Translations under genes and position numbers: made by a program
Part shown: positions 941 to 23,416 of the stretch, in pieces
How the letters are laid out: every line of letters starts with the position of its first letter
How positions within the stretch are numbered: the stretch's first letter is position 1
NCBI GenBank assembly: GCA_020433455.1
Contig: JAGRCP010000014.1
Coordinates: 1-33,578 of the forward strand
Direction: 5' to 3'
Source: Caldilineaceae bacterium
GTDB taxonomy: Bacteria > Chloroflexota > Anaerolineae > Caldilineales > Caldilineaceae
Length of the DNA stretch: 33,578 bases
The notes under the pieces: generated by a model
Seen by the model: the letters and a program-made list of their open reading frames with translations, nothing else
Databases searched by the model: none
Told to the model about the DNA's origin: nothing

Positions 941-1405
941 CTATTGCTGGGAGAGCGCGGCGGCTTCCGCTTCCCACGCGTCAGCGATCATCTGAAAGAT
1001 GTCCACTTCGGTGACGATGCCGACCAGACGCCTGCGTTTGGGGAAGCGCGGGTCCGCCTCGACCACGGGCATGCCGCTCACTTTGTGTGCGATAAAAAGC
1101 TGTACCAATTGACCGACGGTCATCTCCGGACCGACGGTAATCACGTCCGGCGTCATGATGTCGGCCACGGTGAGCCACTCGTGGTCTACGTCGGGCGAAT
1201 AGGCTCCCAGCACGCTATCCACGGTCTCGGCTTCCAGAACGTCGGTGTCGGTTATGATGCCTACGATGCAGCCGTCATCGTCCACCACGGGCAGACGCCG
1301 TACGTCAAAATCTTCCATGACTTGCGCCCCGTCCACCATGAGTTCCTCCGGGTGAATCGAGATGACGACGGTTTCCATGATGTCTCGAACAAGCTTGCGG
1401 TGCAT
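941..1405 (-). CDS. CBS-domain pair protein
   Basis: A protein of about 154 residues made almost entirely of two CBS motifs: VRDIMETVVISIHPEEL...RRLPVVDDDGCIVGIITDTDV (residues ~4-60) and VADIMTPDVITVGPEMTV...SGMPVVEAD...LVGIVTEVDIF (~80-145). CBS pairs bind adenine nucleotides and act as energy or ligand sensors, alone or on partner proteins. The longer upstream frame (to 1477) is not used: the ATG at 1405 has AGGAG 7 nt upstream. It is transcribed away from the M24 peptidase. No catalytic or membrane domain is attached, so its partner is unknown. Confidence 0.88.
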   Translation of the reverse strand: MHRKLVRDIMETVVISIHPEELMVDGAQVMEDFDVRRLPVVDDDGCIVGIITDTDVLEAETVDSVLGAYSPDVDHEWLTVADIMTPDVITVGPEMTVGQLVQLFIAHKVSGMPVVEADPRFPKRRRLVGIVTEVDIFQMIADAWEAEAAALSQQ

Positions 1406-19539: not shown

Positions 19540-19971
19540 TCAGACGTCCGCTTCTCCAGACGACAGCGTAATCAGGTCGCCTTCGATGCGAGCCGGGTCA
19601 TCGGTGATCAGAAGGGCGAAATCTTCGGGCGTCAAGGAGAGAAGGGGAAAGGCAGCCTGGTAGAGTTCGTCGGCGACAATGGCGGCCAGCGCAAAGAAGC
19701 TGTCCACGCCCGTAGTGAGGATGGCAGCGGGCGCCGTGCCTGCCGCCACGGCTTCCAACAGCACGGCGGTGGTGGTGGAAGAGCCCCGGGTATGGGGCAG
19801 GGCCAAAATCCGGCCCGCAGCGACTTGCCCGGCTAAAGGATGGCGCTGATCGATAATCGTGCCGGTTCGGTAGTCATAACCGCCCCAAAAGGAAAGGGGC
19901 TCCCGGCTCACCAGCAGCCTTCCCCTGGCCTGGCCGGGAATGACGACCTGCGCCCGAATCACCCGGCCCAT
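19540..19971 (-). CDS. Aconitase X small (swivel) subunit, DUF126
   Basis: About 143 residues, the swivel domain of a two-subunit aconitase X. The block LLVSREPLSFWGGYDYRTGTI followed by IDQRHPLAG and ILALPHTRGSSTTTAVLLEA is diagnostic of DUF126 and contains the catalytic/substrate-binding Ser-rich loop. With the large subunit it forms a [Fe-S] dehydratase: in bacteria cis-3-hydroxy-L-proline dehydratase, in archaea phosphomevalonate dehydratase; sequence alone does not choose. The ATG at 19971 overlaps the end of the large-subunit gene by 13 nt, pointing to translational coupling; an upstream start at 20019 is less likely. Confidence 0.9.
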   Translation of the reverse strand: MGRVIRAQVVIPGQARGRLLVSREPLSFWGGYDYRTGTIIDQRHPLAGQVAAGRILALPHTRGSSTTTAVLLEAVAAGTAPAAILTTGVDSFFALAAIVADELYQAAFPLLSLTPEDFALLITDDPARIEGDLITLSSGEADV

Positions 19972-21224
19972 AGCGTCTCGTCCCGGACCACGACGCCCGC
20001 AACAGCCGAATTGACGCAATCTTCCAGACTGCCGAAAGTGACGTCGGTTTCCAACATGCCGGGCGAATAGTAGGCGTACTTGGCTGAGTTGGTCATAATA
20101 CGCTTGATGGCAGGCGGCAGCATAGGCGTGGTGAGGATACAGGTGTCCACCGTCAATTCGCCGCCAAAGGCGCGTAAGGCGTCCAGGTGGCCGGCGCGCT
20201 GGGCCAGCATGGACATCATGCGGCTGGTCGTGACCAGGAAGCGCACATCCGAATGACGAGTGCGCCCGGCCAGCAGCGGCGCAAGGGCCGCAAACTCGGC
20301 CAGGGAAAAGTGGGGACTGCCCAGCACGACCATATCCAGGGCCGCTCCCGCACGGGTGGTCAATTCCCGGCGCGCTTGCCGAAGATGCGGGAGCGTGATC
20401 TCCATCACCTGCGCGGGAGCCTGATGTTGGAGGGCCTCATCCAGCGTGGCGGCTTCAGGCGTGATGCCCGCGATATGGAAGAGGGCCACTGCGCCCGATG
20501 ATGCGCCGCCCGCGGCCAGGGCCTTGAGCTGATCTTCGGTAGGCCCCACGCAAAAGCCGTCGAGAACCGGTACCCGCTCACCCGCCAGCTTGCCCATAAG
20601 GTGGCCCAAAACGGGATAGAAGCTGTCATGGGCCTGGAGAGCCGGGGGAATGTCCGCAAGGCGCAGCAGGAGAGTAGCCCGGCGATTCTCTGTAAGATGC
20701 AGCCCGGCCGCAGGCGCACGCCCGGTGATGGCGCAGCAAATATCCAATAGATCGGGGTATCGTTCCGTGCGCGCGCCGATGACGGAATTGGCGAAAGCAA
20801 TGGCGTTGGACTCGCCCCAGGCGATCTGTTGACCGAAGCGGGGCCTCCACTCGGTTTGGTAAGGCGCACAGGTCCAGGTGGGCGTGCAGCCCATAGACTG
20901 GTAGGCGACCATCTGCCGATGGGCTTTCTCCGCCCACGCCCGAGGAACGGCCCACTCGTGCCAGTGACTTTCATCCACGCCGCTTACGTTGAGGGTGGTA
21001 GGGACGCGCACCTGCGCGCCCAGCTCGGCCAGGCGCTCGGCGTACTCCAGCCCGGCGTCGCCGATGTAGAGGCTGCTGTCGATGTGCGCGCCGCTAATGT
21101 CCAACAATTCGGTTGCGCCGTAGACGGACGCCATGCGCGCCAGGATCGTCATGGCCATACGCGGGGCCGGCCCGGCCCGGCCGTCTAACATGCGCTGGTC
21201 CTGAGAAGAGAGGTGCAAGGTCAT
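19959..21224 (-). CDS. Aconitase X large (catalytic) subunit, DUF521
   Basis: About 421 residues, the catalytic subunit of aconitase X. It shows MTLHLSSQDQRMLDG at the start, DISGAHIDSSLYIGDAGLEYAE, MGCTPTWTCAPYQTEWRPRFGQ, AWGESNAIAFANSVIGARTERYPD, FCVGPTEDQ and TVDTCILTTPM: the Cys residues in the second, fifth and sixth blocks are the likely Fe-S ligands or active-site residues. It dehydrates a small hydroxy acid, either cis-3-hydroxyproline (catabolism) or 5-phosphomevalonate (isoprenoid synthesis). No proline-catabolic or mevalonate genes lie nearby to decide. The TTG at 21281 is rejected in favour of ATG 21224. Confidence 0.92.
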   Translation of the reverse strand: MTLHLSSQDQRMLDGRAGPAPRMAMTILARMASVYGATELLDISGAHIDSSLYIGDAGLEYAERLAELGAQVRVPTTLNVSGVDESHWHEWAVPRAWAEKAHRQMVAYQSMGCTPTWTCAPYQTEWRPRFGQQIAWGESNAIAFANSVIGARTERYPDLLDICCAITGRAPAAGLHLTENRRATLLLRLADIPPALQAHDSFYPVLGHLMGKLAGERVPVLDGFCVGPTEDQLKALAAGGASSGAVALFHIAGITPEAATLDEALQHQAPAQVMEITLPHLRQARRELTTRAGAALDMVVLGSPHFSLAEFAALAPLLAGRTRHSDVRFLVTTSRMMSMLAQRAGHLDALRAFGGELTVDTCILTTPMLPPAIKRIMTNSAKYAYYSPGMLETDVTFGSLEDCVNSAVAGVVVRDETLWAG

Positions 21225-21283
21225 GGGGAGGCAAAGATTTGAAAAATGATTGAATTGCTGATTCGATCGCTTTGACTGCAAAT

Positions 21284-21312
21284 ATCATGGCACAAGAGAG
21301 ACGGGTATGCAA
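21284..21312 (-). promoter_or_regulatory. Promoter of the aconitase X operon
   Basis: On the minus strand TTGCAT (21312-21307), 17 nt, then CATGAT (21289-21284). The start would be near 21277, giving a leader of about 53 nt. Confidence 0.5.
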
Positions 21313-21339
21313 CCAACCATACGCCAGATCTGCCCAATC

Positions 21340-21374
21340 AAAAAACGCTGCCCCAGCCAAGGGCGGCGTTTTTC
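21340..21374 (-). terminator. Terminator of twin unit 1
   Basis: AACGCCGCCC pairs with GGGGCAGCGTT, followed by a T-run on the minus strand. It also has five T on the plus strand, so it may act in both directions. Confidence 0.8.
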
Positions 21375-21406
21375 ATCGTGGAGCAGGGTTTGCATCCGCA
21401 GCGGAA

Positions 21407-21634
21407 TTAGCCGACATGGCCGCCTCCATAGCTGCGGCGTTGGGGCGCAACCTGGACCTTCATACGATGGCCAATCCGTTCTAAAAGCGTCCCCGTGCGA
21501 TAGAGCAGGGTCGTTTCCGGATCCCGGGGATATGCAACGGCTCCCTCAGGACGATTGCGTAAAATGCGCTTTATTTCTTCTTCACGCGCCTTCAACGCAG
21601 TATCAGTTTCAAATTGGTAAAGCATAGAAAACAT
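21407..21634 (-). CDS. Small protein of twin unit 1, unknown
   Basis: A 75-residue protein. It shares with the protein at 21946-22167 the blocks REEEI (helical, charged N-terminal half), TLLYR-G-LLE-IGHRMKVQV and the C-terminus APQRRSYG-G followed by G. About half of the residues agree over the aligned part, so the two are paralogues from a tandem duplication. AGAGG lies 6 nt before the ATG. No membrane segment or signal peptide is present; the first ~35 residues should form an amphipathic helix and the end is basic and Gly-rich. It has its own promoter, structured leader and terminator. No known family was recognised. Confidence 0.8.
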   Translation of the reverse strand: MFSMLYQFETDTALKAREEEIKRILRNRPEGAVAYPRDPETTLLYRTGTLLERIGHRMKVQVAPQRRSYGGGHVG

Positions 21635-21770
21635 AAGTAACCTCTCATTGCTAAATTAGCTTGCGCCGCACGCTCCTCTGTGCAGCAACAGCCTGACAAA
21701 AAAGAACGCCCGTAGACCCATGTCTACAGACGTATTTTGAGCTGCGCACGGGGAATCCGTCACGCAGCCA
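21635..21770 (-). ncRNA. Structured leader RNA of twin unit 1
   Basis: Between the promoter and the small ORF is a structured leader. The first hairpin (21769-21741) pairs GCTGCG with CGCAGC plus an inner ACGG/CCGT. After TCAAAAT comes a 12-bp fully paired hairpin (21733-21704) with a 5-nt loop, followed by TTCTTTTTT: an intrinsic-terminator shape ahead of the gene. The same arrangement with compensating changes is found at 22168-22290. It could be a riboswitch or attenuator, or a short sRNA of about 75 nt with occasional read-through. Confidence 0.65.
21698..21733 (-). terminator. Attenuator-like terminator in leader 1
   Basis: A 12-bp stem starting ACGTCTGTAGAC with its complement GTCTACGGGCGT (including GU pairs), followed on the minus strand by a run of T, 64 nt before the start codon. 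Confidence 0.7.
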
Positions 21771-21776
21771 AACGAA

Positions 21777-21805
21777 AGTATACGCCGACAAACAAAAAGA
21801 GGCAA
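21777..21805 (-). promoter_or_regulatory. Promoter of twin unit 1
   Basis: TTGCCT (21805-21800), 17 nt, TATACT (21782-21777) on the minus strand. The -10 and the following TTTC are identical to those of unit 2. Confidence 0.75.
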
Positions 21806-21879
21806 GACCAAAGTTGTACGATTAAGCTACGTTTTTTCTTGTGCAGAATCGACAACTTTCGGACGCATCGCGCTGCATC

Positions 21880-21912
21880 AAAAAAACGCCGCCCCCGGGC
21901 AGAGGCGGCGTT
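21880..21912 (-). terminator. Terminator of twin unit 2
   Basis: A 9-bp stem AACGCCGCC / GGCGGCGTT with a 9-10-nt loop and a 7-T tail on the minus strand; the same GCCGCC stem is used by unit 1. Confidence 0.85.
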
Positions 21913-21945
21913 CATCTTGGAGAAGGGTCATCGTTCATGATGCAG

Positions 21946-22167
21946 TCAGCCGGCGCTGCCGCGCCCATAGCTGCGGCGCTGGGGTGCGACGACCTGGACC
22001 TTCATGCGATGGCCGATGCCTTCCAGAAGATTGCCTACCCGGTAAAGCAGGGTTTCTTCGGGATGCTCCTGACGCAGAATCGCATCAGCCAGGCGTTCCT
22101 GCTGGATACGGGCGATTTCCTCTTCGCGCATCTGCTTCACAACATCCATACTGTATTGGTTCCACAT
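21946..22167 (-). CDS. Small protein of twin unit 2, unknown
   Basis: A 73-residue paralogue of the protein at 21407-21634. The N-terminal half (MWNQYSMDVVKQMREEEIAR and onward) is a charged helix. The second half ETLLYRVGNLLEGIGHRMKV followed by QVVAPQRRSYGRG is the conserved part, which suggests function lies there, perhaps in nucleic-acid or membrane-surface contact given the Arg-rich tail; that is speculation. GAGGTG lies 6 nt before the ATG and the context AATGAG-GGT-ACTTATG is shared with unit 1. It has its own promoter, leader and terminator. Confidence 0.8.
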   Translation of the reverse strand: MWNQYSMDVVKQMREEEIARIQQERLADAILRQEHPEETLLYRVGNLLEGIGHRMKVQVVAPQRRSYGRGSAG

Positions 22168-22290
22168 AAGTCACCTCATTGTGTAGTGCGGCTGCGATAT
22201 GTACGCAGCAAAAAACAAAAAACAAACGCCCGCAGACGAAAGGTCTACAGACGCATTTTGGGCTGCGTACGGGAAAGCCATACGCAACTA
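22168..22290 (-). ncRNA. Structured leader RNA of twin unit 2
   Basis: Homologous to leader 1. Hairpin one (22288-22262) is an 11-bp stem GTTGCGTATGG / CCGTACGCAGC with loop CTTTC. The linker CCCAAAAT is near identical to that of copy 1. Hairpin two (22254-22226) is 12 bp with an ATT-like linker and loop CTTTC, then TTGTTTTTTG. Where the two copies differ inside stems, pairing is kept (A-U or U-A replaced by GU, G-U by A-U), supporting selection on RNA structure. Confidence 0.65.
22217..22254 (-). terminator. Attenuator-like terminator in leader 2
   Basis: The 12-bp stem GCGTCTGTAGAC / GTCTGCGGGCGT with T-rich tail on the minus strand, the counterpart of 21698-21733. Confidence 0.65.
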
Positions 22291-22296
22291 AATGAA

Positions 22297-22325
22297 AGTA
22301 TAACGCAATGCGTTAAAAAAATCAA
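22297..22325 (-). promoter_or_regulatory. Promoter of twin unit 2
   Basis: TTGATT (22325-22320), 17 nt, TATACT (22302-22297) on the minus strand, in the same place relative to the leader as in unit 1. Confidence 0.75.
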
Positions 22326-22371
22326 GTCCAAAAGCCTACGATTTGGCTTTTCTCTTTCACCATCTCCCGGG

Positions 22372-22377
22372 TATACT
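22372..22377 (+). promoter_or_regulatory. -10 element of the RNase/inhibitor operon
   Basis: TATACT on the plus strand, 51 nt before the RNase start, with a weak TTTTCT -35 18 nt upstream. It diverges from the unit 2 promoter. Confidence 0.45.
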
Positions 22378-22427
22378 GGTCCGGCACTGGATGACCCGGA
22401 ATTCAGCATCACACGAAAGAATCGACT

Positions 22428-22979
22428 ATGACAGCCAACTCATCAGGAGGCGGCAACAAAAAGCTGACCAGCGGCGGCCTTATCGCCATCATTATTGCCG
22501 TGGTGGTTGCCCTGGCCGGCGGCGGCAACTTTTTTGACACCCTGAATCAGGTCAACGAAGCCATAACGCCGGCCACAGTTACCGTCATTGCGGCGGAGAT
22601 GACCCACACCGCGGCCGACGGGCCTGCCGCGACCGCGACCGTCGCAACGGCCACGCGCGCGGCAGCCGCGCCCCAGGCGACGCCACGCGTCTCCCGCAGC
22701 GGATTGCCGCTCATCCCCTACGCTGAGTTGCCGCCCGAGGCCCAGGACACGCTGGCGCTCATCAAAAGCGACGGGCCCTTCCCCTTTGACCGGGACGGCC
22801 TGACCTTCCAAAATCGGGAGGGCATTCTGCCCGGCAAGCGCGCCGGCTACTATCAGGAGTACACGGTTATTACGCCCGGATCTTCGGACCGGGGAGCGCG
22901 GCGCATCGTCACCGGGGCGGAGGGCGAAATCTACTACACCGACGATCACTATGACAGCTTTCGCGAGGTGAGCTTCTGA
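22428..22979 (+). CDS. Membrane-anchored barnase-like ribonuclease
   Basis: A 183-residue protein: a hydrophobic segment GGLIAIIIAVVVALAGGG (~16-33) as signal or anchor, an Ala/Thr-rich linker (~45-88), then a microbial RNase domain of the barnase (RNase N1/T1) family. By comparison with barnase, FQNREGILPGK carries the guanine-binding Arg/Glu (130, 131), YYQEYTV the general base (Glu144), RRIV the phosphate-binding Arg (158-159) and TDDHYDSF the general acid (His174). It should cleave RNA after guanine, outside the cytoplasmic membrane. The next gene is a barstar-like inhibitor with a TGATG overlap, which protects the producer cell. Confidence 0.9.
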   Translation: MTANSSGGGNKKLTSGGLIAIIIAVVVALAGGGNFFDTLNQVNEAITPATVTVIAAEMTHTAADGPAATATVATATRAAAAPQATPRVSRSGLPLIPYAELPPEAQDTLALIKSDGPFPFDRDGLTFQNREGILPGKRAGYYQEYTVITPGSSDRGARRIVTGAEGEIYYTDDHYDSFREVSF

Positions 22980-23416
22980 TGTGGCAACTGGAGAAATTAC
23001 TCAGCGGCGATCCTGCGCCCGGCATTTATCGCTATGCTGGCAAGGAGCATCCGGCCGATCTACGCGAGGACCTGGCGATCTTCGGCTGGGAACTCTTCTA
23101 TCTCGACGGGCGGAGCGTACGTGACAAACAGTCATTTTTGCAGGCCGCGGGCGCGGCCATGGATCTCCCGGCCTACACCGGCAAAAACTGGGATGCGTTT
23201 GAGGAAGTAATCCGCGATCTGGATACAGAATATACGGAGGGCTATGTGCTGCTCTTTGAGTACCCGAGTAATTTTGCCGCCGACGCGCCCGAAGATTGGG
23301 CGACGGCCAAGTCCATCCTGCAGGACGCCTGCCGCTTTTGGACCGGGGAGGGCCGGCCGTTCTACGTCCTGCTGCGGCGGGTGGATAGAGGGATGAGGGA
23401 GATCCCCATGCTGTAA
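22979..23416 (+). CDS. Barstar-like ribonuclease inhibitor
   Basis: A 145-residue protein, longer than classical barstar (about 90), with the barstar core LFYLDGRSVRDKQSFLQAAG, then YTGKNWDAFEEVIRDL and YVLLFEY. Barstar blocks barnase by inserting the helix after NxDA into the active site; here Asp72 matches barstar Asp35, while the key Asp39 position appears to be Glu76. The extra N-terminal ~35 residues are of unknown role. No signal peptide, so it stays in the cytosol. Its ATG shares bases with the RNase stop (TGATG), a coupled pair as in other barnase/barstar loci. Confidence 0.9.
   Translation: MWQLEKLLSGDPAPGIYRYAGKEHPADLREDLAIFGWELFYLDGRSVRDKQSFLQAAGAAMDLPAYTGKNWDAFEEVIRDLDTEYTEGYVLLFEYPSNFAADAPEDWATAKSILQDACRFWTGEGRPFYVLLRRVDRGMREIPML

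Follow-up and report, generated by a model that had tools for sequence, protein, structure and literature searches.

Premature termination of transcription in 5' leaders, with a functional short RNA as its product or with none, is well documented (PMC7815308, PMC5089854, PMC12218461). Such termination is described as widespread in Escherichia coli, where it can release stable RNAs such as ChiZ and IspZ (PMC7815308); the sRNA UpsM of Rhodobacter sphaeroides derives from the 268-nt 5' leader of the dcw cluster and occurs across Rhodobacteraceae (PMC5089854); and a small DUF1127 gene of Sinorhizobium meliloti is subject to leader attenuation that depends on translation of an upstream ORF (PMC12218461).

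The locus described here lies in a window of 33,578 nucleotides (the whole stretch of DNA analyzed) from a Caldilineaceae bacterium and comprises two tandem units, each with a terminator predicted in the leader of a small ORF. The likeness to UpsM is that a Rho-independent terminator in the 5' UTR would cut short the transcripts from the promoter of the gene itself and so give a short RNA; the difference is that UpsM comes from a 268-nt, Rhodobacteraceae-wide leader of a cell-division cluster, whereas the leaders here are ~72 nt long, exist as two tandem copies in a single genome and precede small orphan ORFs. With the DUF1127 gene the locus shares a small gene preceded by a leader in which transcription stops early, as predicted in our case, but the S. 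meliloti system needs upstream ORF translation and no credible upstream ORF is present here. The E. coli ChiZ and IspZ leaders likewise combine 5'-UTR premature termination with a short RNA. Orphan status aside, nothing found sets the two-unit leader apart in mechanism, and within a limited literature survey the arrangement is ordinary. The locus is a clean orphan example, from an uncultured lineage, in which a short leader RNA ending at a terminator is coupled to a small protein that is itself an orphan. At present it mainly illustrates that a leader may look conserved and yet be confined to two copies in a single genome; its importance would grow if read-through proved to be set by the RNA or by a trans factor.

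Organization of the two units

The units lie on the minus strand at a spacing of about 520 bp (unit 2, 22325->21884; unit 1, 21805->21341) and follow a common order of -10-like TATACT, hairpin H1, CAAAAT, 12-bp hairpin with U-tract, Shine-Dalgarno sequence (SD, GAGG-type in both), ORF and second terminator. In unit 2 the sigma-70-like promoter TTGATT-17-TATACT (22297..22325, 9/12 matches), which has TATACTTTC in common with unit 1, is followed by the 11-bp H1 (22262..22288), the CAAAAT linker or A-tract (22255..22260), the 12-bp terminator hairpin (22226..22254) with its U-tract at 22225-22217, an orphan ORF of 73 aa (P0002, 21946..22167) and a terminator behind the ORF (21884..21913), all on the minus strand. 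Unit 1 repeats this arrangement on the same strand, with the promoter TTGCCT-17-TATACT (21777..21805, 9/12 matches), an 11-bp H1 with a single bulged G (21741..21768), CAAAAT (21734..21739), a 12-bp terminator hairpin (21706..21733) with its U-tract at 21705-21698, an ORF of 75 aa (P0001, 21407..21634) and a terminator behind the ORF (21341..21373). H1 itself is simple, a single hairpin whose loop has 5 nt. Coordinates, folds and the terminator scan agree with the first-pass annotation, which had assigned H1, CAAAAT, a 12-bp stem and a U-tract to both units; its distance of 60-85 nt from terminator to start codon is close to the 71 nt (unit 1) and 58 nt (unit 2) that we measured from the end of the stem.

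Stability of the hairpins and competing pairings

H1 and the terminator together fold at -38.6 kcal/mol in unit 1 and -35.0 kcal/mol in unit 2 (z -5.07 and -7.00), and none of 200 shuffles was as good in either unit. H1 alone gave z -4.13 (unit 1) and -5.68 (unit 2). For the full leader, ending at the start codon, z was -4.34 and -4.66, with 1/200 and 0/200 shuffles as good; a third hairpin 3' of the terminator was not significant against shuffles (z -0.17 and -1.60). A terminator scan of 21200-22450 returned 8 sites against 1.9 expected. The promoter-like boxes directly upstream of both leaders, 2 found against 0.9 expected, are weak when taken alone. By sequence alone, an intrinsic terminator sits between a promoter-like box and the start codon in each unit, and on this footing the leader anatomy is real and conserved between both copies. 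Because CAAAAT partly pairs with the U-tract in the minimum-energy folds, the linker may be merely the A-tract of the terminator.

When the terminator stem was forbidden, 18.1 and 18.4 kcal/mol were lost and both arms stayed unpaired in the minimum-energy fold; no replacement pairing of the kind expected from a mutually exclusive antiterminator was found in either unit. Pairing between the upstream leader and the terminator 5' arm reached -11.1 in unit 1 (5% shuffle tail -10.5) and -6.1 in unit 2 (shuffle median -7.0), so no such pairing was strong in both copies. Pairing is possible in both copies between the 3' arm of H1 and the segment directly behind the terminator, at -16.4 and -18.2 kcal/mol, a strength equaled by fractions of 0.037 and 0.006 of 1000 mononucleotide shuffles, and this predicted alternative might matter in the read-through RNA. 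Since it encloses the terminator rather than breaking it, it would not act as an antiterminator.

Conservation between the copies

Over the stretch that begins with the -10 box and closes with the terminator stem, 63/76 aligned bases are identical between the units, with two gap columns, and the spacer behind the leader has diverged. At the third codon positions of P0001 and P0002, 36/73 are identical and 37/73 differ, so that the leader, at 13/76 differences, is the slower of the two (Fisher p 2.4e-5); without the -10 box the comparison of 13/70 with the third codon positions gives p 9.4e-5. Change at a rate below that of silent sites points either to function or to gene conversion limited to this segment. 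We regard the leader as probably selected, and leader-only gene conversion may be the other cause of the similarity; with two sequences from one genome the two are not separable with certainty.

All 22 pairs in the two-row alignment are standard in both copies, with 17 invariant, 5 changed on one side and none on both. The five one-sided changes swap C and U, or A and G, across from a G or U and pass through G-U, and retention of pairing in 5/5 changed pairs has a probability of about 0.002-0.07 under random single substitutions, depending on the transition share. The earlier description of differences that keep pairing by compensating changes is therefore accurate for pairing, which stays standard in 22/22 pairs, but overstated for compensation, with 0/22 pairs changed on both sides, a count that from two sequences can neither prove nor refute structure.

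The encoded proteins

P0001 and P0002 are paralogues with 58-59% identity. Their NG86 values (dN 0.37, dS 1.49, dN/dS about 0.25, falling to about 0.16 over the last 39 codons) indicate that the ORFs are under purifying selection and look coding. Between the two, the C-terminal tail HRMKVQ(V)VAPQRRSYG has hardly altered, and the N-terminal half has diverged. Structure prediction for P0002 gave two helices at pLDDT 67 and pTM 0.30, with one PDB match at E 5.5, and gave no information on what the protein does.

Neither protein matched Pfam, NCBIfam or PHROGs. In their own genome no relatives were found apart from the pair itself, and there were none in the 45 remaining family genomes (the genomes of the order are the same 46 as the family set) or, under each tool's own criteria, in collections of phages, plasmids, viruses and genomes. 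Four weak matches among 395 other class genomes and one among 399 other phylum genomes were rejected on translation: one falls in an ABC-transporter-like protein, two are antisense to long frames, and the remaining two are short frames without the P0001/P0002 pattern.

Relatives of the leader RNA

Rfam 15 gave no matches at the gathering cut-off, and a permissive threshold gave a single 12.8-bit match (cut-off 40), which falls in the ORF and its 3' end, and none in the leaders; the first-pass annotation had recognized no known riboswitch class, and the Rfam comparison bears this out. A covariance model (R1) was built from the two leaders and searched against the family and class sets. The family, class and phylum sets used for RNA or protein overlap, and the class and phylum sets are samples; searches over >40 genomes use stricter filters and could miss weak relatives. 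By construction R1 gives the two leaders it was built from about 100 bits, and it gives terminators elsewhere up to 37 bits, so much of it describes just a good terminator.

In their own genome R1 found the two leader copies only. Matches at E <= 1 occurred in 12/45 other family genomes and were rejected because none, as judged by eye, has H1 plus terminator. Matches at E <= 1e-4 occurred in 8/395 other class-sample genomes, at nine loci that, read against R1 and in their context, were rejected as good terminators with a first helix broken or unrelated at most; two of the nine lie directly behind apparent tRNA genes, by eye. Near AcnX, the best 80 of 144 loci yielded two weak matches of 19.0 and 12.9 bits, with broken pairs. 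Two exact 17-base matches in viral contigs were also discarded, as they lie inside a phage gene that R1 does not match.

One family-genome match (L013, R1 22.1 bits) has the stem bases CTGTAGAC/GTCTGCGG in common with unit 2; its terminator-like hairpin at 1290-1360 (-) contains the same eight stem pairs, and the gene that follows is, by eye, of aminoglycoside-acetyltransferase type. This match was taken as chance, since it lacks H1, its fold over 101 nt is no better than shuffles (z -0.94), and among 396 class genomes the pattern CTGTAGAC-N(3-6)-GTCTRCGG has 7 occurrences (2 here and one each in 5 others), compared with 13 for the same pattern read backwards. No relative of the leader RNA was thus found outside its own genome in 46 family genomes or 396 class genomes, own genome included in both. 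The suggestion of a conserved RNA class does not hold up: only the two copies were recovered, and neither the family and class searches nor the two-copy alignment revealed a structure with two-sided covariation across genomes.

Models of leader function

On balance we lean towards each unit being a separate small gene whose 5' leader would end in an intrinsic terminator with limited read-through. Transcription would start directly before H1, as the -10 box suggests, and a start placed 8 bases after that box predicts short RNAs of 71 and 73 nt. Most RNA polymerases would halt on reaching the U-tract, freeing a ~72-nt RNA whose two ends each carry a hairpin, and a minority would pass the terminator and give rise to the 73-75 aa protein. 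Because the leader offers no substitute for the terminator stem, read-through would be either a fixed low fraction or set in trans, for example raised by a protein that recognizes H1; with no cis rival to the terminator, premature termination with limited read-through is the simplest reading. We infer the ~72-nt product, the read-through fraction and the trans factor from sequence. The earlier proposal of regulated read-through or a ~75-nt sRNA survives in part: the terminator between promoter-like box and ORF would imply a ~72-nt RNA, but regulation by a riboswitch is unsupported, as nothing replaces the forbidden stem.

The ~72-nt RNA could itself be the selected product, a trans-acting sRNA, with the downstream protein secondary or regulated apart. 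An H1 at the predicted 5' end and a terminator at the 3' end form the usual layout of stable sRNAs, the stem sequence is kept beyond what pairing requires (17/22 pairs unchanged), and UpsM is a precedent in print for an sRNA made from a 5' leader with a terminator (PMC5089854). We consider this unlikely, since the ORF behind the leader is itself under selection and no relative elsewhere reveals a conserved seed. It is more doubtful that the terminator is an unregulated leftover, carried along by duplication and merely lowering expression; two tandem copies in one genome would suit such an origin, but the leader has changed less than silent sites, in contrast to the diverged spacer that follows it.

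We give little credence to a lineage-restricted, tandem-duplicated two-part system in which one promoter supplies a ~72-nt two-hairpin RNA and a small protein whose basic tail is conserved; the protein would then bind H1 and tune its own read-through, or the RNA would guide the protein. A ligand-binding riboswitch, or another cis attenuator with a competing antiterminator, is slightly less probable again. Leader position and terminator fit such an element, and the H1 3' arm can pair behind the terminator in both copies, but no structure competes with the terminator stem, the pairing of the upstream leader with the terminator 5' arm exceeds the 5% shuffle tail in unit 1 only, H1 is just a plain hairpin with a loop of 5 nt, and neither an Rfam match nor a family was found. 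Attenuation through a translated upstream ORF, as for the Sinorhizobium DUF1127 gene (a published small-gene case, PMC12218461), is highly improbable: both leaders are indeed traversed by an open frame that begins at a GTG or ATG within H1, but the start codon differs between the copies (GTG, ATG), the predicted transcription start is just a few bases upstream of it, an indel of one base within the terminator loop throws the remainder of the frame out of register, and no conserved short ORF with an SD was seen in the two leaders.

Genomic neighborhood

Divergent from unit 2, a gene at 22428-23416 (+) encodes a barnase-type ribonuclease (Pfam PF00545) with a hydrophobic N-terminal stretch, adjoining a gene for a barstar-type inhibitor (PF01337). 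Relatives of this RNase occur in 20/46 family genomes, own genome included, and an ad hoc motif found no similar ORF beside the RNase gene in 20 loci of 19 other family genomes. Directly downstream of unit 1 lies an Aconitase X (AcnX, PF04412) gene at 19959-21281 (-), whose best matches are mostly from Chloroflexota MAGs (the top two at 72 and 70%), with several labeled Acidobacteria; on these matches a Chloroflexota origin is likely.

An imperfect inverted repeat lies directly upstream of both promoters (21806-21862 and 22327-22350, minus strand), with AATCGTA and a CTTT(T)GG-like stretch in common; it may serve as an operator or terminate some other unit. Arms of the two post-ORF terminators, at 21361-21373 and 21882-21894, are mutually perfectly complementary over 13 nt at a distance of 508 nt.
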